Origin: a virus
Length of the DNA: 36,401 nt
Reading direction: 5' to 3' (one strand)
IMG/VR virus record: IMGVR_UViG_3300009183_000201
Location: 1-36,401 of that record
Below the pieces are notes generated by a model. The model was not told the origin of the DNA, searched no databases, and worked only from the letters and a program-made list of their open reading frames with translations. The position numbers and the translations under genes were made by a program. Each line of letters begins with the position of its first letter. Position 1 is the first letter of the stretch. Below, one piece after another: positions 2,411 to 36,401 of the stretch.

Positions 2411-4476
2411 TGAGCCTTCCGTTCCCGCTCTTGGTCACGGTCGACTTTAGCGATTTCGGCCATCAACCCCTGAAACGCCATTGTCGCTGCGGCGCGGTTG
2501 CCAATCGGGATCTTGAATGCCTGCGTCAGCAACCGAGTAGCTTTGGGCGAATACATCAATTTGGCCAGAATCGGCGGGGCAATCAGCACAAACGCTGCCG
2601 TCTTTGGGTCCAGCAAAGCCGCACCTTGGCTCACGAGCGACGCAACTTTTGCCGTCCCTGATGGGTTGGGGTCCCGCGACTGCATCTCTGCCAATTGGAA
2701 CAAATTGCTTATGTCTTGCCGCTGGCGAGGGTTAGGAACCAGCACCGCCTTGGTCTCCGGCCCGAGAGCTTCCCAGCGCTTTGTGAGTGATTTGCCGCCA
2801 GTGAATTCTCCCGTGCGCATAGCGTCCTCAAACAACCCTTGAAGGAATGCCCGACCGACCTTCGGTATCTCTGAAGGCACTTCTGCCGCAACCCGCTTCA
2901 GGAACGCTACTCCGGAGTCTCCTTGGTAGGTCAACTGTTGAAACACCTGCACCGGCTCCTTCAATAGTTTGTTCGCAACGGCTTCGGCACTCTTCTGGCT
3001 TTTAAATGCCTCACGGCCTGACTGCAACGCCTCCAGCGCCTCCGGTCCTGCCTCCGCGACCGAGCGCTCCACCTGGTCGTAGAGTTCCTGGACCGTGCGC
3101 GCGGCCATCCCCTGCTTCTCGTTCCGTACGATTTGCCCATCGTCGAGACGGCTGGCTGCCTTCATCGCAGACAGATCTCGATCCGCTATGCTGGCAGATT
3201 TGAAATCGGGGCCGTCGACGATAGACTGCAACATAGCCTGTTCCTGGCCGCGCATCTTCGCCGTTTCAGGGTCGGCTGACTTATACAACTGCTTGAGATC
3301 TTCCAGCGGGCCGCCAGCCAACTCCTTCAAGTTCCGCACATCCACTGGGACCGCCATCGTCTCCATCACCGGCTGATCAGCTAATTGGACGCCAGACAAT
3401 TGCGCTAATTTGTAGACGCTCGCCTGCTGCTCCTTCGTCAGTTTGCTAAATGGCTTGTCGGTCTGACTCTTCGCGAACGCATCCAGTTCCAGGGCTGCCT
3501 CTGGCGATTTCGCCATGCCGACCTGAACGGTCCGCAGATTCTCAGGGCGCGACTCAATCTCTCGCAGGTTACCGTAATGGTGGCCGGCCTCGTTGCTCAT
3601 TTGCCGCGCGCGTTCCGGGACGGCGTTCTGCACGCCCTCACCGGCTTGCTGTGCGGTAATAGGCCGCGGATACACCTCATCCGCTTGCTGTTGCGCCGCT
3701 GAACCTATCGCCGCCGTCTGCTTCTGTTGCTCTGTGCGGCTGATGAGGCCGCCCGTCATAGAGCCCTGGAGCAATGTCTTGGCGTGCTGAACCCACTTCG
3801 AGCCACTCCGCATAGCCAGGTCGACTGGAATGCCGCTTGCGTCGGCGAAAGCGATAGCGGCGGCCTCCGCCTGGTTAAGCGCCGGCCGGATCAGCGGCCG
3901 CACCGAAACATGCCCCGCCTGCTGCATCTTCGCCGGAGCCATCACCGACAAACCCAGCCCGGCCGTCTCGCCTAGCCCCTCGGCTACTCTGCCCTGCGCA
4001 ATGAGGTCTCCAGCGTGATTGACACCCGGCCCCAGCATAGGTATCAGGTAGCCCATCCCGTAACGAAGGGCGTCAGTGTAGTTGCCCTGCCCCCAAGCGT
4101 CCCGAGCCTTCGTCAGCTGATCGGCCTGCGCCTCGAGCATGCTGTTGCCGACTTGTCCGACTGCCTGCAGCGGGTTTTTCCCTCGGAATTGGCCAGAGCC
4201 AGACAACGCGTCCAACACCGGAGCCGGGTTGACTACATCGCCCGCGGACCGCATGAATTTGCCGGTGGCCTCCAGCGCATTTGAGAACACGCCAGGCGCG
4301 GCCTCGCCAGACATCGACGCCTGCATAGGCTGCTGCGTAGGCTGCGGCGTAGGCTGCGGCGGCTCATCCTGGACAATGCGTGCGCCACGCGCGACGGCAG
4401 CCTCCACGGAGCCGCGCGGGATTGCCCCACGCCGCCCATCCGGGAGCTCAACAAGTACCTTCTGTGGATCTGCCAT
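2407..4476 (-). CDS. Ejection protein, P22 gp16 position
   Basis: 689 residues, the third of three consecutive large proteins after the gp14-like gene, the place of the P22 DNA-ejection protein gp16 (609 residues). The N-terminal 60 residues include a Pro/Gln-rich linker; the middle is helical and rich in Ala and Gln; a hydrophobic stretch near the C-terminus (AAFVLIAPPILAKLM) could enter a membrane. Such proteins sit inside the virion and are expelled into the cell envelope ahead of the DNA. A very strong GAGGAGG site precedes the ATG. The call rests on synteny, length and composition more than on sequence motifs. Confidence 0.75.
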   Translation of the reverse strand: MADPQKVLVELPDGRRGAIPRGSVEAAVARGARIVQDEPPQPTPQPTQQPMQASMSGEAAPGVFSNALEATGKFMRSAGDVVNPAPVLDALSGSGQFRGKNPLQAVGQVGNSMLEAQADQLTKARDAWGQGNYTDALRYGMGYLIPMLGPGVNHAGDLIAQGRVAEGLGETAGLGLSVMAPAKMQQAGHVSVRPLIRPALNQAEAAAIAFADASGIPVDLAMRSGSKWVQHAKTLLQGSMTGGLISRTEQQKQTAAIGSAAQQQADEVYPRPITAQQAGEGVQNAVPERARQMSNEAGHHYGNLREIESRPENLRTVQVGMAKSPEAALELDAFAKSQTDKPFSKLTKEQQASVYKLAQLSGVQLADQPVMETMAVPVDVRNLKELAGGPLEDLKQLYKSADPETAKMRGQEQAMLQSIVDGPDFKSASIADRDLSAMKAASRLDDGQIVRNEKQGMAARTVQELYDQVERSVAEAGPEALEALQSGREAFKSQKSAEAVANKLLKEPVQVFQQLTYQGDSGVAFLKRVAAEVPSEIPKVGRAFLQGLFEDAMRTGEFTGGKSLTKRWEALGPETKAVLVPNPRQRQDISNLFQLAEMQSRDPNPSGTAKVASLVSQGAALLDPKTAAFVLIAPPILAKLMYSPKATRLLTQAFKIPIGNRAAATMAFQGLMAEIAKVDRDQERERKAQ

Positions 4477-7842: not shown

Positions 7843-10041
7843 CTATGCGGGGCCTAGAGTCGTAACCGTCCCAGACGATCCTCGATATTTGAGAGCGCCT
7901 GCTTCGACATAAAGTTGCCCCATGCCTGCTGGCGAGGTCGTGGGTGCTGTGCCGTTGGCGATACCAATAACCTTTGCCGCTGAAGTACCGAAGGAAGCGA
8001 CTCCGATGCCCACGTTGCCAGTGGAGTCGATCGTTACGCGAGTATTTGTCCCGCCACTCTGTGTTATGAATTTATGACCACTGTAACTAGAACACTCCAC
8101 GTATCCAGAAACAGAATTAGCTTTTATAGTGCTGTTTGTATCACCACTGTTTAAGTTTACTAATGTGTCTGCAGTAACCACTATCCCATTACTAGCGTAG
8201 ATCGTTCCAACAACATGCAACTTTTGCACAGGACTCGTCGTTCCGATGCCCACATTGCCAGTGCTATCTATTGTTAAACCTGTGCTAAAAGAAGTTCCCG
8301 AATTGATTGTCCATTTATTAGCATTAACGCCCCAAGACCACCATTGGCTAGCACCGGCCCCATCGGTTGATGCCATCAGGTTTAGTGCGTTTATTGAATT
8401 TCCGGTCGGGGTCATTTGTGTCAGACGACCCTGACCACCATAGACAGTAGTAATAAGTAATGATGCGTCGGCTGTAGGCGCAGTAGCTCCTATAGTAACT
8501 GCCCCGCCGACTATAGCTACTTTCGCATACGCCCCAGGACTCGGCGTTCCGATGCCCACGTTGCCAGAGGTGTCGATACGCATCGTTTCCGTTGTTCCAC
8601 CGCTGCCTCTGTAAAATGCCAATACTTCTGCTGCTGGCTGGCGAATAGCTGCGTATGTGGTTCCGTCTATTCTTAACTCAACACCACTGCCAGAAGTATT
8701 AGCACCGGCGTTCGCTCTGCTTGCGATAAAATTGCCTATATTACTATAAACACTTCCCGAAACTTCTAATTTAGCCGTCGGACTCGCCGTCCCGATGCCC
8801 AAATTTCCAGATGTATCCAGCGTCATTCTCAATGAGTTATTTGAATAAAACGCAACGGGATGATTTGTTGTTGTCCCAATACCAAGAGAAGTTCCTCCAG
8901 TATTATAGAAAACACCCTTCAGAGTATTAGTAGTATCTGATACAGTAATCCCATCATTTGCGGCCACGGATACATGGAACTTGGATACCGGACTCGTCGT
9001 TCCGATGCCCACGTATGTTCCAACCATTGAAAGAACATCTGTCGTGCCTGCCCCCAAGTGAATATTGGCGTTACCCAATTCCACATAACTAGCTGGCGAG
9101 GTAGTAAACGAGTTATCAACAGCGTATTGCATCCTCCACCCAGCCCCTGTCCAATCGGATCCAGCAGTTCGCCGATATGCCGCTACTTGTAAACGCAATA
9201 TGTTAGAGCTAGAAGCGTTTAACACTTCTAATGGATAAGAGTAATTCGTTGCACTATTACCCAAATTGACCGTCCCATAGGCTGTAAATGCAGAGCCTAT
9301 GTTGGTGGTCATACCTCCAGTAGTACCCACTTGTAATTTTGCTGATGGACTCGCCGTTCCAATGCCCACCTCACCTGTGGTTTTAATCCGCATCCTTTCA
9401 GACTGCGATCCAGTCGTAAAGATAATGGCATCACTCGTACCAGCCCCGCTGGTCGATTGCAATGTCAGAAAGGACGATACAGCAGTGCCGCCGTTGACGA
9501 GTGGGATCACAGCGCTAGTCGTGACCGTAGGCGTGACAATCGTAGGCGAGGTAGCAAATACATTTGCACCTGTACCTGTCTCGTCAGTCAATGCAGCCGC
9601 TAGATTAGCAGAAGACGGCGTAGCTAAGAACGTCGCAACGCTAGTGCCTAATCCACTCACTCCAGTAGAGATAGGGAGGCCCGTGCAGTTCGTCAGAACG
9701 CCAGAAGTTGGAGTTCCTAATAGAGGAGTTACCAACGTCGGACTCGTAGCAAAAACCAATGCCCCTGTCCCCGTCTCATTGGTAACCACGGCAGCCAGAT
9801 TGGCCGAAGACGGCGTCCCCAGGAACGTCGCCACCCCGGTCCCAAGCCCGCTGACCCCGGTGGAGATCGGCAGGCCAAAGCACGTAGAAAGGTCGAATCC
9901 AGACAAAACAACATTGGCCAGCACGTAGCCCCCGCCGTTGACATTGCCTCCCCAGGCGCGAATATCGTTGCCGACGTTGTTCAGGTCAGTGAACGACAAC
10001 ACGTCGGCGCTGGTGAAGTTGACGCGCGATAGCCAGGCCAT
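7843..10041 (-). CDS. Tail fibre with VGIGT repeats
   Basis: 732 residues. The N-terminal 40 residues ([17 protein letters not shown]) are likely the virion-binding end. Residues about 57-170 hold two near-copies of a repeat ([31 protein letters not shown]). The rest is built from repeated blocks of GNVGIGTxSPxxKLxV type, the hallmark of trimeric beta-helical phage fibres. The C-terminus ([14 protein letters not shown]) lacks an obvious self-cleaving chaperone domain. The DNA between about 8040 and 9480 is clearly more AT-rich than the capsid genes, suggesting separate origin. It should recognise the host surface. Confidence 0.88.
8003..9368 (-). repeat. Dispersed repeat encoding VGIGT fibre motif
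   Basis: Six copies of the plus-strand core CCGATGCCCA (one with CCAATGCCCA) start at 8003, 8243, 8549, 8792, 9002 and 9359. Most are preceded by GGACTCGYCGTTCC-like sequence and followed by a variable segment. On the coding strand they encode VGIGT/S-SP. Spacing is irregular, 210 to 357 bases, so this is a protein-module repeat rather than a tandem DNA repeat. It could be a target for recombination that reshuffles fibre modules. Confidence 0.85.
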
Positions 10042-15623: not shown

Positions 15624-16280
15624 TTACGCCTTCGGGGGTTCCGCCCCGCCTTCTCCGAGCACCTGCGCGTTCAGCTGCGACAGCGCAGCCAGCGATTGCG
15701 TCGCGCCCTGCACGATCTCCTGCGACACCGTCCGCCCATAGCTGGGCGCAATGTCGACGGCGAGGTTGTAGGTCAGCGCGCGCTCGTAGCCGGCGGGTAA
15801 TGTTACCGTCGTCGCAAGGGTGGCGAACTCGGTTAAAGCCTTGAGCGAGTAGAGGATCAGGTTCCCGGCCGTCGGCTTCGGGTAGAGGAAGATGTTGCCG
15901 GTGGGGCTGCCACCATCCCAGAACATTGCATCGGCGAACTTGCCGGTTGCGGCCTTATCGAGGATCATAGACCACTGCTCCGCGGGGATAATCGATACTG
16001 GCTGCTCCACCGTGCCGGTCGACACCGAGGCAGCTTTAATCTTCAGCGGCCGTGCCGTGTTGAAGGTTTGCCCTGTGCCGATCGTGTAGGAAGCGGCACC
16101 CGTCAACGTAAAGCTCTCCCGCGTCACCTGGTACACCGGGAGGCCCGCGGAGCTCCAGCTGGAGAGCAGGTTATTCAGACGGGTGAGGGCGTCCGCGGAC
16201 TCCTCCGCGCTCGCCTGACGCCCGGTGCGTAGCTCCCCGATCGCACGTAACGCCTGGTCGATGAGATTCTGGACTGTCAT
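15624..16280 (-). CDS. gp4-like tail accessory factor, paralogue 2
   Basis: 218 residues, colinear with the copy directly upstream over the full length and close to half identical by eye: MTVQNLIDQALRAIGEL, LPVYQVTRESFTLTG, SYTIGTGQTFNTARP, FWDGGSPTGNIFLYP and TLPAGYERALTYNLAVD. Its ATG overlaps the previous stop by ATGA and a GGGAG site precedes it. The family joins the portal ring to the tail tube. Both copies look intact, with no stop or frameshift, so both are probably used. Confidence 0.8.
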   Translation of the reverse strand: MTVQNLIDQALRAIGELRTGRQASAEESADALTRLNNLLSSWSSAGLPVYQVTRESFTLTGAASYTIGTGQTFNTARPLKIKAASVSTGTVEQPVSIIPAEQWSMILDKAATGKFADAMFWDGGSPTGNIFLYPKPTAGNLILYSLKALTEFATLATTVTLPAGYERALTYNLAVDIAPSYGRTVSQEIVQGATQSLAALSQLNAQVLGEGGAEPPKA

Positions 16281-16933
16281 TGAGCAACTCCCGCCGGGGC
16301 GGCTTCACCCAGGACGATCTGATTGAGGTTGGTCAGGGCCGTCTTCGACTCGGCGGCAGCAACTGAGGCTTCGGGCGACAATTGCCGGCCGTACTCGGCG
16401 GCAAGGTCGGACGCTAGTGCAAACCGCAAGGCGCGCTCGTAGCCAGGCGGAAGCGTCACTGTGTCACCCAGCGCTGAAAACGTCGTCAGCGGCTTGTAGC
16501 TGTACAGCAAAATGGATCCTGAAGTCGGTGCTGGCCACAGATGTATCGTGCCGGTGGGAAACCCGGCATCCCAGAACAACCGCTCGGCGAACGTGCCCGT
16601 GCGCCCCTGGTCGATGATCTCGGCCCACTGCGCTGCCGAGACAATCTCGACGGGCTTCTCGACCGACGAGTTAACGACAGCCGCGGCCACCAGGCGCACC
16701 GGCCGCGTCGTGTTGAACGACTGACCCGTGCCGATCGTGTAGGATGCCGGGCCGGTCAGCGAGAACGTCTCGCGCGTGATCTGGTAGATGGGCAGCCCCA
16801 GCGCTGTCCACGACTCAATAATTTGATTTAGAGCGGAAAACGAATCGTTAGATTCATCCGCCGACGGCGACTCTCCACTGGCAATGACGCCCAGGGTCCG
16901 CAACGCCGAATTGACCAATTGCTGTACTGTCAT
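16277..16933 (-). CDS. gp4-like tail accessory factor, paralogue 1
   Basis: 218 residues beginning MTVQQLVNSALRTLGVIAS. Conserved family blocks include LPIYQITRETFSLTG, SYTIGTGQSFNTTRP, FWDAGFPTGTIHLWPAP and TLPPGYERALRFALASD. The start codon overlaps the stop of the small gene upstream (ATGA) and AAGGA lies seven bases before it. It is the first of three tandem paralogues placed where P22 has one gp4. P22 gp4 also has a muramidase-like activity; I see no clear catalytic motif here and make no such claim. Confidence 0.8.
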   Translation of the reverse strand: MTVQQLVNSALRTLGVIASGESPSADESNDSFSALNQIIESWTALGLPIYQITRETFSLTGPASYTIGTGQSFNTTRPVRLVAAAVVNSSVEKPVEIVSAAQWAEIIDQGRTGTFAERLFWDAGFPTGTIHLWPAPTSGSILLYSYKPLTTFSALGDTVTLPPGYERALRFALASDLAAEYGRQLSPEASVAAAESKTALTNLNQIVLGEAAPAGVAQ

Positions 16934-30442: not shown

Positions 30443-30812
30443 CGGTCGCCTCCAGTTCACTCACCCGCTTAATTAGCGCAGCCACACGCACCTCTAGCCA
30501 CTCAATCCGGTTCATATGCATGTCGCCCCTGCCCTCAAGACCCCGCCCGATCAGACGCACCTCGGTGAGCCCAGCATTGAGCTTGCAGACGTTTTCTTGC
30601 ATCGTCCTACCCTTTGTTATGCGCTCGGTGACCGCGTCGACGAACGCCCCCCGCGCAGACGAGGCTCGCTCTTCTCGCTCCATCGCCAGCTTGTCTGGGC
30701 ACTCGACGACGCGCCGAGGCCTAGCCTGCCCGCGCCGAAACGCGATCGAGCACGCTGGGCAGCGCGTCGACTTCAGGCCGATGTCGGTCGCGCAATCAAT
30801 ACATGTATTCAT
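30435..30812 (-). CDS. Zinc-ribbon plus helical protein, 125 residues
   Basis: GGAGG lies just before ATG 30812 and the start overlaps the rusA stop (ATGA). The N-terminus has Cys4-x2-Cys7 and Cys18-x2-Cys21 (MNTCIDCATDIG, RCPACSIAF), a classical zinc ribbon, followed by an arginine-rich stretch and a C-terminal helix (IEWLEVRVAALIKRVSELE) with heptad character. Probably nucleic-acid binding and self-associating. It is encoded between resolvase and initiator. Confidence 0.75.
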   Translation of the reverse strand: MNTCIDCATDIGLKSTRCPACSIAFRRGQARPRRVVECPDKLAMEREERASSARGAFVDAVTERITKGRTMQENVCKLNAGLTEVRLIGRGLEGRGDMHMNRIEWLEVRVAALIKRVSELEATDE

Positions 30813-31219
30813 CGAGCCTCCGAAATGCGAATAATTGCCCCAGGCACATCAAGCGCAAACCTATCCGTGCCGGGGAACACTTTGACCACGGCCAAGCGCA
30901 CGATTCTGGCGTCGTCGTCGATGGTGCCCGCGTCGACCAAAGCGTCCTCCGTCGATCGGATTAACTTGGACAGATCTGGCTTGCGGTCTGGGAAGAGTCG
31001 AGATTTTGGCGCGCTAGGCGGCCGCCGGAGCGTGAAAGTGATCTCCACCTGGATTGCCCCGGCAATGCGCTGGCCAGCCTCGCGTGCGGCCCAGACCACC
31101 GCCAGGCGCCAGGGCTTAACCCCGGCGCTCGACTCGATCATGCGACCGTTCCCCACATGCCGCTTGCTGCCCTGCGGGGCGGGCTCGCCCAACACGGTGA
31201 TGGTGATAGGATCAGCCAC
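30809..31219 (-). CDS. rusA: RusA-family Holliday junction resolvase
   Basis: 136 residues, GTG start overlapping the previous stop. The RusA family hallmark is visible: N-terminal GEPAPQGSKRH, then KPDLSKLIRSTEDALVDAG (residues 80-98) and DDDARIV (101-107). RusA dimers cut four-way junctions. In E. coli RusA the essential acids are in a DxD pair and a downstream DD; here the second acid of the pair is Ser84, though Asp82, Asp92 and Asp101-103 are present. Some phage relatives may also have Ser there, so activity is uncertain. It belongs with the recombination genes upstream. Confidence 0.88.
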   Translation of the reverse strand: MADPITITVLGEPAPQGSKRHVGNGRMIESSAGVKPWRLAVVWAAREAGQRIAGAIQVEITFTLRRPPSAPKSRLFPDRKPDLSKLIRSTEDALVDAGTIDDDARIVRLAVVKVFPGTDRFALDVPGAIIRISEAR

Positions 31220-31439: not shown

Positions 31440-31970
31440 CTAAAACGGTAAATCGTCGTCGGACACCAAAAGCGGTGTCGGGTTCGGTACAGGTGCAGTT
31501 ACTGGCAAAGCCTTCAAAGCCCGGCCAAACAGCATGTCCAGCTTCTTTACGGCCGCCGCAGGCATCGCCTCGGGAGTAACTCCGACTGACTGCCGTCGCA
31601 CTTGCCAGCGCTCCACAGTCTGCGTCTGCCCTCCGTTGTCGACATACTCTTCATGCGCGCAGATCATCTGCGCCTGGCCAGTCAAGATGATCGCCCGCGG
31701 GCTCCGCGGGTCTAACTGGGAAAAGTTCTCCCCAGCGAACCCCAGCGTCCGCAGATCCTGCGCGAAATAGTCCTCCGTCTTCGGCGTCAAGACCTTTCGC
31801 CAGGTGCGTTCGTACTCCGCCGGCACCGGCTCCCAGTCGGCACCGCGCTGGATGAAGTTCGGGCGGAACTTCAGCCAAAACTCCGCGTTCCCGTTCTTCG
31901 TCTCCGTCCAGCCCTGCCCTCCCTCCAGTTCGACGGAGTAGATGCCTTGTGCGTAAAATGGCTTACCCAT
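31440..31970 (-). CDS. SSB-like protein with acidic C-terminal tip
   Basis: 176 residues. The protein has a beta-rich N-terminal region (AQGIYSVELEGGQGWTETKN, AEFWLKFRPNFI), a central RAIILTGQAQMICAHEEYV strand pair, and ends in a proline-rich linker and SDDDLPF. The D-D-D-L-P-F tip is the hallmark by which bacterial and phage SSBs bind partner proteins. It follows the Sak4-like gene with an 8-base overlap, and Sak4-type annealases work with such SSBs. The OB fold itself cannot be proven by eye. Confidence 0.65.
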   Translation of the reverse strand: MGKPFYAQGIYSVELEGGQGWTETKNGNAEFWLKFRPNFIQRGADWEPVPAEYERTWRKVLTPKTEDYFAQDLRTLGFAGENFSQLDPRSPRAIILTGQAQMICAHEEYVDNGGQTQTVERWQVRRQSVGVTPEAMPAAAVKKLDMLFGRALKALPVTAPVPNPTPLLVSDDDLPF

Positions 31971-32853
31971 TATTCAGTGCCCTCCCGGCCTCGCGGGCCT
32001 GTTTGATTGCGCCAATGAATGCCTCGTAGGCATCCACATATCCGGTCGAGCCAAGGTCGACCTGCTCGGGCAGGCCCAGGCGATTCTTGGCGTCGAACGC
32101 CGCGGTGCGCGTAGTGAGCAGGATGCGCTCGGCCCCGCCGACTGCCTTGCCCCGCTTGGAGACATCCGTCTCCTCTTTGCCGCGGGCCCCGATCACCATC
32201 TGGCTGTAGTGGCCAAACAAAACTAGGTCGGCCCACTCTTTCGACAGCGCCCAGGTTTTGTCGTGCATTTTCGCGCTGTAGCGGTCGTAGTCGGCCCCTT
32301 CGGGATTCCTAAACGGACGCACGGCCGTGTGGCAGAGAGCCATGATCGCCATCCGCTTCTCACTGCGCAAGCGGTCAAGTTTGGAGAGGAACTCCCTCCA
32401 ATACGAGAGACTTACCTCGTATCCCCTCATGTACCCCATGAAGCCCTTATCCGACCAGTCGCCCTGGAACTCCCGCTCGCAGACATACTCGTGGCAAAGC
32501 CGCTCGGCCCCGTTGAGCGTGTCGATCGCCAGCGTGCGAAATGTATGCTGCTCGGTCAGCAGCATCTCAATGCCGGCCGTGAGCTCGTCCCACGTCTCTG
32601 CCGCCGGCAGATGCGGCACCTCCGGCAGCTGCTGCGCGTCGATCAAGGTTTCCAGGCCCGTCTCGCCGCGCGTCTGGAGAAAAAAGACTTCCTTGGCGCA
32701 GGCCGCGAAACTCGTCTTCCCCCAGCCTTCGGTGGCGTGTAAAATAGCCCTGCTGGGCAGGTTCTGGCCCTTGGTGACTACGTTAGCCAGCGTGAACTGC
32801 TTCGGTGCTGCTGATGATGACCTCGGCGGCCTCGTCATTAATGAACTCGACAT
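31963..32853 (-). CDS. Sak4-like RecA-fold ATPase
   Basis: 296 residues from ATG 32853 (AGGAG eight bases upstream). Walker A lies at residues 39-47 (ATEGWGKTS), and a hydrophobic strand LAIDTLNGAERL near residue 110 is the Walker B region; a sensor-type MALCHTAVRPF follows near 170. This matches the AAA_24/Sak4 group of phage ATPases that stimulate single-strand annealing. It is encoded between a RecB-type nuclease and an SSB-like protein, a typical phage recombination set. Its first 71 bases lie inside the nuclease gene. Confidence 0.82.
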   Translation of the reverse strand: MSSSLMTRPPRSSSAAPKQFTLANVVTKGQNLPSRAILHATEGWGKTSFAACAKEVFFLQTRGETGLETLIDAQQLPEVPHLPAAETWDELTAGIEMLLTEQHTFRTLAIDTLNGAERLCHEYVCEREFQGDWSDKGFMGYMRGYEVSLSYWREFLSKLDRLRSEKRMAIMALCHTAVRPFRNPEGADYDRYSAKMHDKTWALSKEWADLVLFGHYSQMVIGARGKEETDVSKRGKAVGGAERILLTTRTAAFDAKNRLGLPEQVDLGSTGYVDAYEAFIGAIKQAREAGRALNNG

Positions 32854-33892
32854 TCCCTTGCTCCTTTATTTGCTTAAAATACGCGGCCATCGCGTGATGC
32901 CACGCCTGACCGAAAATGAGCGACTCCCGCTCATCGTCTTGGACCCGCTCCACGCCAAGCTCATACTGATAGAAGTGCTTCCGCCGGCACGTCTGAAAGG
33001 TCCGCAGACGGCTATTGGTCAGCAAGCTGCGCCCGCCTTCGCCGTCATCGAACTCGTTGATTTCCGCATGCACCAACGCCTTACGCTGCCAGTTGGCGCT
33101 GTCGATGGTGTCGTGGCCGCTGCAGACGCCCAGGAACTTGCACGGGCTTCCGTAGAGCATGCAGGCCCCGCTGTTGCGTGGGTGCCGGTCGTTGCGCCGC
33201 GCCTGGATGATCTCCTGGCCGAGGTCCCATAATTCGGTCGCGTATTCGGCCAGCTGCGAGTCCATCCGCGGGATCCGCCGCCGCTGGAAGTACGCTTGCG
33301 GCCGCACCTCGCTGCAGTCGTTCACCAGGCGAGCTTCATACAGGGCAAAAGTCTCGCGCCCTGACACTTGCGCTTCCTCAATTGCCTCGTCCTCCATTTC
33401 GATCCCGCACCACGTCCGAGTCGCCACCAACGCGGCCATCTCCGCCTTCGTTATCTGCCGCGGCGATATGGTCGGTTTCTTGACCACGTCCCAGACAGCC
33501 CACTGCACGCGCTCTCCATGAGCGTGCTTCAGCAGCATGTAGTGATCTATCTGCGATTCCACTACCAGCTGCCGCCAGTACGGCGCGTCCGGATCCTCGA
33601 TGCTGTCTGACGTCGTCTTGTGATCCATGAGGCCTGGCTGATCGCCATCAAACAGTTCCACGTCCATAACGCCGCCAAAGGCAAACGTCCTGCTACGGGC
33701 ACCGGTTTCGATATTGATCAGCCCGGCGCCAGCGAACTCCTCGACGTGCGTGACCCGGTAACGCTCCACCTCCGCGCGGAACCGAAGATGGTAGCCAACC
33801 ACTAGCGCGCGCAGCTTCGACTGCAGCAGGCCCTCGTCTGGCCCGATAGCGTCGAGCGCCGCGTACATCGGCGCGTCGATTCGGTTAATCAA
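32783..33892 (-). CDS. PD-(D/E)XK nuclease with permuted domain order
   Basis: 369 residues from TTG 33892, which overlaps the upstream stop (TTGA). The catalytic core of RecB-family nucleases is early in the chain: Asp77 (FGGVMD), Asp90-x-Lys92 (MDHKTT) and Gln114-x3-Tyr118 (QIDHY). Next come three cysteines, Cys244, Cys251 and Cys257 (CMLYGSPCKFLGVC), as in the Fe-S group. After these, at residues 288-340, stand the elements normally found at the N-terminus of this family: SLLTNSRLRTFQTC (Cys302), FYQYELGVE and FGQAWHHAMAAYF (His332). So motif order is core, Cys cluster, N-terminal module. It should act as a 5'-3' exonuclease or resection enzyme with Sak4. Confidence 0.82.
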   Translation of the reverse strand: MINRIDAPMYAALDAIGPDEGLLQSKLRALVVGYHLRFRAEVERYRVTHVEEFAGAGLINIETGARSRTFAFGGVMDVELFDGDQPGLMDHKTTSDSIEDPDAPYWRQLVVESQIDHYMLLKHAHGERVQWAVWDVVKKPTISPRQITKAEMAALVATRTWCGIEMEDEAIEEAQVSGRETFALYEARLVNDCSEVRPQAYFQRRRIPRMDSQLAEYATELWDLGQEIIQARRNDRHPRNSGACMLYGSPCKFLGVCSGHDTIDSANWQRKALVHAEINEFDDGEGGRSLLTNSRLRTFQTCRRKHFYQYELGVERVQDDERESLIFGQAWHHAMAAYFKQIKEQGNVEFINDEAAEVIISSTEAVHAG

Positions 33893-34092
33893 AACTTCAC
33901 CGACTCTTCCGAGTCAAGCCAAAAAATGCCGTACTCACCGGCCACCTGGCCCGCCCCCCTGCGGACCAAGTCTGAGACGGTGACCAGTTTCCCCGTCTCC
34001 CTCCGCGCCAAGGCAACAGCAGCCGTCAGCGCTTCCCAATCCTGCGGCAGGAACCGGATAGACGTTATTTTTGTTCGATTGTCGTATTTCAT
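33889..34092 (-). CDS. Ribbon-helix-helix-like DNA-binding protein
   Basis: 67 residues from ATG 34092, with GAGGAG eight bases upstream. The layout is a short beta strand (TKITSIRFLPQDWEAL), a helix (AAVALARRETGKL) and a second helix after a threonine (VTVSDLVRRGAGQVA), as in Arc/MetJ-type ribbon-helix-helix repressors. It is the first gene of the early run and lies next to attP, so it could repress the early promoter or assist excision. No other repressor was found in the window, which makes it a candidate regulator. Confidence 0.65.
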   Translation of the reverse strand: MKYDNRTKITSIRFLPQDWEALTAAVALARRETGKLVTVSDLVRRGAGQVAGEYGIFWLDSEESVKF

Positions 34093-34129
34093 ACTTTCTT
34101 CTCCTCTCATTGGTCAGGCCCCGATAGGG

Positions 34130-34350
34130 AGCAAAAAGGTGCAAATTTGAGTTCAAAAGACCTTAGCTACAAAAGTTCAGTGTTGAAAACAAAGGACTTA
34201 TCAACCAAAAGTGTTGCCTCCGGAGCAAAAGGCCACAAGTTCGAATCTTGTCGGGCGCACCATTTTTTCAACAACTTACAGTCAAAACAACTATCTCAAA
34301 CGCTGCCAGGGTGCAAAAAGGGTGCAAAAAGTGCAAAAAGGGTGCAAAAA
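34130..34350 (+). repeat. GTGCAAAAA direct repeats flanking attP core
   Basis: GGTGCAAAAA occurs at 34310-34319, 34321-34330 and 34341-34350, with GTGCAAAAA at 34331-34339. On the other side of the core, AGCAAAAA (34130-34137) is followed by GGTGCAAAT (34138-34146). All are direct copies on the plus strand. Short repeats on both sides of a crossover core are what tyrosine integrases use as arm-type sites. Confidence 0.6.
34214..34262 (+). other. attP core: 3' half of tRNA-Arg(CCG)
   Basis: The sequence reproduces a tRNA from the anticodon arm to the CCA end: TTGC, anticodon loop CTCCGGA (CCG, arginine; 34218-34224), GCAA, variable bases, T arm ACAAG-TTCGAAT-CTTGT (34235-34251), acceptor strand CGGGCGC, A, CCA (34260-34262). 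The 5' half of a tRNA (a GCGCCCG start) is absent upstream. This is the usual form of an attP that restores the tRNA on integration. It lies 650 bases from the integrase gene's 3' end. Confidence 0.8.
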
Positions 34351-34911: not shown

Positions 34912-36117
34912 CTACGCAAGCATGGAGGCAAATAACTGCTCGGCACCGGCTCGCTGCGACTCGGTCACGATCTGCGCGTACACATCCATGGTGGTCTGCG
35001 CGCTGGCGTGCCGCAGCTGCGCCTGGACACTTTTGACGCTGGTGCCCTGTGCGATCGACAGCGTCGCTACCGTGCGCCTAATTACTTGGAACGTACACTT
35101 CACGCCCGCCAGCTTCGCCGCGGGGGCCAAGATACGCTTCCGCCAGTGTTCCGAATAAATAGGCGTCCCGGCCTGAGACGGGAACAGAATATCTTGCGGG
35201 AACCGGCATTTCCCTTCAGCAATCCACACCCGCAGTCGCGTCATCAATCCCGCCGGCACAGCCACAGCCGCAATCGACGCGCGCGTCTTCGGCAATTCCA
35301 TCTTGCCGCGTGTGTAGCCCTCGTCGATGTACAGCCCGTTGTCCTGCACGTCACCGAGCTTCAATGCAAACAACTCGCCCGGGCGCATGCCGGTGGCCAG
35401 CGCCAAGTCCAGGATCAGCAAATCGCGGCCCTTTAGTTCCAAGCGTAGCCGGTGTACCTCGTCGACAGTCAAATACGACCGGTCGGTCCGTTTCTGTGCG
35501 AGCGGCTTCTTCAGCCGCCGCAACGGATCGCGCGGCAGCACCCCCCGATCAAATGCCTCGGAGGTGATTGATCGCATGTACACTCGCAACTTATGCAAGT
35601 ACGAGCCGCTGCGCTTCACCGTCGACTCGACTAGCCAAGCCGCGCACGCTGGCTCTGTAATTTTGTCGAGCGGCGTTGCGCCCCACTGCTCTTTGATCAG
35701 CGCCAGGAATCGCAACGCCGTCAACTCTGTGTTGCGACGCCAGGTGCCGCGCCGCGACGGAAGCCAGGTATCGTCGACAAATTGCCCCAGCGTCGGCACC
35801 AGCAGCACGGGAGCGGTAGGCTGCGTATTGCCGATTGCCTGCCGCACCATCGCAGGTGCCTCTTCCTTAATGAGGCGGGCAAGCTCCAGGCGCGCTTCAT
35901 CCTTGGTCAGAAAGGGCAGGTGCTCGTCAGCAATACTGGCGGACTCGCACTCCATATTCGGCCCCTTTTTAATCCCCACAACTTTTGACCGATGCGCGCG
36001 GGCCTGCTCACCGTCGTCATTGACGACGTAGATGAACCAATGCGCTTTGAGTTTTTTTTGCCCAGTAGCCGTGGCGACCTCCTCAATATAGCCGCGAACT
36101 CCTTTTTCTCTGCGCAC
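34912..36117 (-). CDS. int: Tyrosine-type phage integrase
   Basis: 401 residues from GTG 36117, preceded by GGAGGA (a TTG at 36132 is the longer alternative). Numbering from that TTG, the catalytic residues are Arg250 (ATGMRPGEL), Lys282 (PKTRAS), Arg352 (VIRRT), His375 (LRHAS) and the nucleophile Tyr385 (DVYAQ). Where most relatives have His in the HxxR box, this protein has Gln349 (FQVIRRT). The N-terminal 100 residues form the arm-binding region and residues 113-200 the core-binding SAM-like domain. It recombines attP with the host tRNA-Arg gene. Confidence 0.93.
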   Translation of the reverse strand: MRREKGVRGYIEEVATATGQKKLKAHWFIYVVNDDGEQARAHRSKVVGIKKGPNMECESASIADEHLPFLTKDEARLELARLIKEEAPAMVRQAIGNTQPTAPVLLVPTLGQFVDDTWLPSRRGTWRRNTELTALRFLALIKEQWGATPLDKITEPACAAWLVESTVKRSGSYLHKLRVYMRSITSEAFDRGVLPRDPLRRLKKPLAQKRTDRSYLTVDEVHRLRLELKGRDLLILDLALATGMRPGELFALKLGDVQDNGLYIDEGYTRGKMELPKTRASIAAVAVPAGLMTRLRVWIAEGKCRFPQDILFPSQAGTPIYSEHWRKRILAPAAKLAGVKCTFQVIRRTVATLSIAQGTSVKSVQAQLRHASAQTTMDVYAQIVTESQRAGAEQLFASMLA

Positions 36118-36401
36118 ACTTCCTCCCAACAACAGCCTGAATGACTATCGTTAAGCGTAGCATACGCGTATTACACTTCAGCTCCTAGCTCAATTTCGTC
36201 TAGGACTCATGAATTCTGTGACACTTTTGGTGGACACTTGCGTGACCGACCCCTTACCCATAGACGCTATTAAAACAAAGCCCCTTGATGCTGGAACCAC
36301 TCGCGTGCCGGTTCTAGTACCTTACGTGGCTTGGGGGGGGGGGGGGGGGGGCGACACCGCCCACACACAACCCCGGGGAAACCACCACCAGCTTCACCCC
36401 G
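36118..36401. other. Integrase upstream region and right window end
   Basis: No gene seen. ATACGCGTAT (36162-36171) is a perfect 10-bp palindrome about 45 bases before the integrase start and could be an operator. I found no clear promoter. Positions 36333-36351 are 19 G in a row followed by C/A-rich low-complexity sequence, matching a poly-G sequencing artefact at a contig end. Confidence 0.5.

Follow-up and report, generated by a model that had tools for sequence, protein, structure and literature searches.

Gene content of the locus

The window analyzed here comprises positions 1 to 36,401 (36.4 kb) of an IMG/VR virus record, IMGVR_UViG_3300009183_000201. On the minus strand, a 369-aa ORF that begins with a TTG start codon is predicted to encode a nuclease of permuted motif order. 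This gene lies directly upstream of a gene for a Sak4-like protein, which is followed by a gene for an SSB-like protein. The features of the locus are as follows, in the direction of transcription:

33889-34110, minus strand: small ORF upstream of the nuclease gene, 73 aa, no family match
32783-33892, minus strand: predicted permuted PD-(D/E)XK exonuclease gene, 369 aa
33107-33829, minus strand: catalytic core and three-Cys motif, residues 22-262 (D77, D90xK92, QxxxY at 114-118, C244/C251/C257)
33032-33106, minus strand: linker, residues 263-287, bridging the former C- and N-termini (W268 and E277 conserved in the alignment)
32855-33031, minus strand: translocated N-terminal module, residues 288-346, with LTNSRLRTFQTC (C302) and GQAWH (G328, H332)
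32786-32854, minus strand: variable, probably disordered C-terminal tail (pLDDT <50 at residues 349-369), which overlaps the start of sak4
31963-32853, minus strand: Sak4-like ssDNA annealing protein (AAA_24), 296 aa, based on profile matches
31440-31970, minus strand: SSB-like protein, 176 aa, with the acidic tip DDDLPF; annotated in phages Tunturi_1 and Tunturi_2 as single strand DNA binding protein
30809-31219, minus strand: RusA-like Holliday junction resolvase (PF05866, 40.8 bits)

The TTG start codon of the nuclease gene overlaps the stop codon of the small ORF upstream. Translation could also begin at an in-frame ATG, codon 9, and the argument for permutation is unaffected by which of the two is used. 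In three relatives, the SSB-like protein ends in DDDVPF, DDDIPF or DSDVPF.

Order of the conserved motifs

The window protein carries the D..(D/E)xK motif of the PD-(D/E)XK superfamily (D77, D90 and K92) and the QxxxY motif of the RecB/AddB/Cas4 subfamily (Q114 and Y118), together with a metal-ligand GxxxH helix (G328 and H332) and four cysteines corresponding to those of the Cas4/AddB staple, with C302 contributed by the N-terminal module and C244, C251 and C257 following the core. The original prediction read these motifs in the order core, three cysteines, N-terminal modules, and both this order and each of the residue positions above were confirmed; the modules carry LTNSRxRTFQTC and GxxxH. 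The GxxxH helix is therefore C-terminal to the core, all four cysteines fall within the C-terminal third of the protein, and the catalytic histidine comes last in the chain. In RecB/AddB/Cas4 proteins, the order is N-terminal module, core, three cysteines; as the window protein does not follow it, we name this protein a permuted variant and not a canonical member. A second N-terminal module was found neither upstream of the gene nor at any other place in the window, the relatives likewise have none upstream, and the 73-aa ORF is not such a module. Across the loci, we also looked for a module at both ends or an upstream remnant and found none.

Profile comparisons gave the same picture. In native order, the Pfam profile PDDEXK_1 matched the window protein in two stretches, the best of which was residues 292-353 on profile positions 3-66; this is the translocated module, which perm_N and can_N profiles also recognized. 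The phrog_1218 (exonuclease) profile likewise matched two stretches, with residues 44-257 on profile positions 116-329 as the best. When the sequence was rotated at residue 285, each profile matched in one stretch (PDDEXK_1 3-246 and phrog_1218 6-329) and scores rose; the PDDEXK_1 score increased from 56.9 bits to 62.1 bits, both above the curated cut-off of 22.

For rotation tests, we built further profiles from canonical-order phage genes. The native window protein matched the canonical-gene profile twice, at 37.5 bits (profile 88-301 on residues 23-264) and at 37.0 bits (profile 16-68 on residues 291-345); in a scan of rotation points, rotation at residues 277-289 yielded a single match of ~75 bits over profile positions 16-301. 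A 13-sequence canonical profile that leaves out the nearest canonical relative, L033, was applied to the window protein and 30 of its permuted relatives; in 31 of these 31 proteins the two swapped matches became one upon rotation, with the best rotation points at residues 262-289, whereas rotation of L033 itself, the canonical control, added a mere 0.1 bits. Because swapped two-part matches fuse on rotation, circular permutation of the nuclease is established at the sequence level. Rotation near residue 285 thus produced the single full-length match to phage nucleases that the original prediction called for, and the break lies where it was placed, in the linker that connects the GxxxH helix to the core.

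Fourteen relatives from other phages have the canonical order, in which the module precedes the core, the opposite of the permuted genes; none has both. Exonucleases of phrog_1218 and PDDEXK_1 (PF12705), such as Yersinia phage P744 ORF032, Gordonia phage GiKK gp47 and the Desulfofustis phage exonuclease, share the motifs and also adjoin a Sak4 or RecA-like gene; however, their N-terminal module occupies residues 1-80, ahead of the core, whereas in the permuted protein it follows the core and the cysteines. For both halves of the window protein, the best canonical relative is L033 (core, 95 bits; N-terminal module, 44.6 bits), and the next best scores 22.1 bits and 31.8 bits, respectively.

These comparisons bear on the possibility that a core lacking its own N-terminal module captured the module of a different nuclease gene downstream. 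The module is short, so that its own history is poorly resolved, and the tree described below treats both halves together, which leaves some room for such a fusion; however, rotation rebuilds one continuous profile match, and a check of 12 permuted records found a single PDDEXK_1 gene in every one (12/12). Since L033 is the best canonical match of either half, we consider fusion with a foreign module quite unlikely.

Predicted structure, active site and proposed activity

Using a 25-sequence alignment of permuted proteins (34-51% identity to the window protein), AlphaFold2 modeled the window protein with a mean pLDDT of 88.7 and a pTM of 0.85; residues 289-346 were well modeled (pLDDT 85-97), and the last 21 residues were disordered. 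The AlphaFold2 model of L027, a relative about 34% identical to the window protein, had a pLDDT of 89.7 and a pTM of 0.85. In both models, the C-terminal module folds confidently within the chain and not as the unrelated domain that would speak against permutation. With residues 1-284 accounting for only 0.77 of the window chain, the pTM of 0.85 suggests that the module, too, must be placed.

Structural comparison of model residues 2-260 with the PDB identified AdnAB (Z 9.0, 177 residues aligned), AddAB (Z 8.3, 140 aligned) and ACE1 (Z 8.3, 174 aligned); these are sequential alignments, and the C-terminal module lies outside them. In the alignment with the Cas4-family protein ACE1, model residues 2-259 are paired with its residues 75-271; ~74 residues at the start of ACE1 and ~110 at the end of the model are left unpaired, as permutation predicts. 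By sequence, the nuclease had no match in the PDB, nor did it match any NCBIfam or PADLOC entry. In the viral model library BFVD, the top match was A0A6J5NSY1 (22% identity, full length, same order, TM 0.74-0.85), which is probably a further permuted member. A second BFVD entry, A0A6J5MFE0, which like A0A6J5NSY1 is a protein of an uncultured Caudovirales phage, matched the permuted models over nearly the whole length at 12-13% identity. Together, these model matches suggest that the permuted architecture reaches past the aligned family.

In AddB and Cas4, which are 5'-3' exonucleases, one N-terminal and three C-terminal cysteines hold one Fe-S cluster (PMC3466216). The nuclease domains of Cas4 (Sso0001) and AddB have the same catalytic motifs and four cysteines as the permuted protein; however, their first cysteine is N-terminal and their GxxxH module lies ahead of the core, whereas both are C-terminal in the permuted protein. 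The reasoning of the original prediction that joining the old termini is structurally sensible agrees with this staple (PMC3466216). We predict that the permuted chain adopts the usual architecture, in which H332 from the C-terminal module would complete the D77/D90/K92 metal site, and C302 together with C244/C251/C257 would bind a single Fe-S cluster, or alternatively a zinc ion, stapling the new junction.

The same geometry weighs on whether the C-terminal module instead packs on the core of a neighboring subunit in a domain-swapped dimer. A linker of ~25-45 residues precedes the module and the AlphaFold2 model is of a monomer, both of which would be compatible with a swap; however, the single-chain models are confident (pTM 0.85), and the cis connection is short because the old termini meet at the Fe-S cluster in the canonical fold (PMC3466216). 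We therefore give domain swapping a low probability and prefer a module that packs on its own core.

The gene neighborhood is conserved among permuted loci. Sak4 lies downstream in 37 of the 39 distinct loci, and the remaining two contigs end too soon; an SSB-like gene comes next in 35 of the 35 loci with room for it. Canonical-order relatives occupy the same slot beside Sak4 in Yersinia phage P744, the Desulfofustis phage, FF47 and others. In phage HK620, Sak4 anneals single strands, and SSB aids it through its last six residues (PMC5928155). By analogy, the permuted enzyme would resect phage DNA ends 5' to 3' and most likely generates 3' single strands for annealing by Sak4; the SSB-like protein would coat these strands, and the RusA-like resolvase may act on the branched recombination products. 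For cluster binding, 5'-3' polarity and ss/ds preference, we extrapolate from Cas4 and AddB; nuclease activity, the presence of an Fe-S cluster and where the module sits in space are likewise inferred.

In the 25-sequence alignment, D77, D90, K92, Q114, Y118, C244, C251, C257, C302, G328 and H332 are all invariant. The gene very probably encodes a working end-resection exonuclease of the Sak4 cassette, a metal-dependent and circularly permuted enzyme of the RecB/Cas4/AddB type. An inactive or repurposed nuclease fold, for instance one with a structural role as in the Cas4 derivative of TTV1 nucleocapsids, has a known precedent in an archaeal virus with an inactivated Cas4 derivative (PMC5704561); it is nevertheless very improbable here, given that D77, D90, K92, Q114, Y118 and H332 do not vary across 25 diverse members and that the gene belongs to a recombination cassette.

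Distribution among phages and possible origin

Another 43 IMG/VR contigs share the permuted order, as do two cultured phages with complete genomes, Tunturi_1 and Tunturi_2, so that the search for same-order relatives suggested at the outset returned dozens. Identity of these relatives is 34-53%, and reading frames are intact in nearly all: the core and the module share one frame in 41 of the 43 contigs and in both isolates, and the order core, three cysteines, N-terminal module occurs in 44 of 44 complete permuted genes. One contig (L032) ends inside the permuted gene. In contig 3300025133_001378 (L031 and L078, about 3990-4330), the reading frame of the permuted gene changes at a point between YFQRR and the Cys motif; either the gene is broken there or the assembly contains an indel.

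The homologues in the cultured phages, Tunturi_1 gp59 and Tunturi_2 gp56, come from phages of Tunturiibacter (Acidobacteriota) and are 50-51% identical; they have the permuted order and, like the window gene, sit upstream of Sak4 and SSB. In the annotation of both genomes, they are listed as “exonuclease,” and the permutation goes unmentioned there; a term search of the paper describing the Tunturi phages turned up no exonuclease. Pattern scans of limited sensitivity across a bacterial and archaeal genome collection identified no relative, and neither did a scan of plasmids. A viral scan with the rotated single sequence gave no match because its patterns were too specific.

The window comes from an IMG/VR virus record and not from a cultured phage, which speaks for an assembly chimera, but the chance that the swapped order is such a metagenome artifact is practically nil: 43 other contigs and two complete cultured-phage genomes share it at 34-53% identity, which also rules out a chance origin, and because the isolate genomes Tunturi_1 and Tunturi_2 carry the order, the misassembly against which the original prediction had advised checking is excluded.

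In the tree of rotated sequences, a single branch parts permuted from canonical proteins. A single origin of the permutation has moderate support here, with values of 92/70, or 61/87 once one long-branch row is dropped. The exact place of L033 is unsure because a long branch leads to it. We propose that the permutation arose once, in an ancestral phage, and was then conserved. The most likely route is that a gene in canonical order was duplicated in tandem and that a start within copy 1 and a stop within copy 2 then came into use; this would have joined the old N- and C-termini via a linker of ~25-45 residues and opened new termini in the stretch connecting the GxxxH helix to the core. The two-ended form that such a duplication would pass through was sought in the permuted loci, and none was found.

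The kind of enzyme is already known, and the module order is a variant of it. In the open papers searched, we found no report of a permuted RecB/Cas4/PD-(D/E)XK nuclease; an earlier mention may exist elsewhere. Circularly permuted DNA methyltransferases occur in jumbo phages (PMC7824862); these are likewise permuted domains in phages, although of another fold and enzyme class. The nuclease provides a natural experiment in a DNA-end-handling superfamily of all domains of life, as the metal-binding histidine and one of four cluster cysteines have shifted from the N-terminal to the C-terminal end without loss of any key residue. The permutation lends support to the published “staple” model, which has the two old termini meeting at the cluster, and it explains why annotation by motif order or full-length profile (Pfam, PHROGs) detects halves only.

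It is conceivable, though unlikely, that this is an undescribed natural permutation of an Fe-S-stapled fold that was fixed once in a phage lineage and kept for a functional effect of the order. For example, the fourth cluster cysteine and the metal-ligand histidine would be made last, and activity would arise only once the chain is complete; another example of such an effect would be module exchange between subunits. The idea is directly testable, as two cultured phages carry the permuted gene.

Three other regions of the window contain features of note. A stretch at 34210-34270 (GTTCGAATCTTGTCGGGCGCACCA) resembles a tRNA 3' end and lies beside an integrase gene (34912-36132, minus strand); ARAGORN identified no complete tRNA at 34210-34270, and the stretch is probably a phage attachment site. 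Between 7989 and 9387, a 43-nt repeat occurs in six spaced copies within a 732-aa ORF (7843-10041) without a Pfam match, possibly a repetitive tail protein. Between 15778 and 16799, repeat families of 103 and 32 nt recur at a spacing of 653 nt and span two adjacent 218-aa ORFs (15624-16280 and 16277-16933), which are likely a tandem gene duplication.
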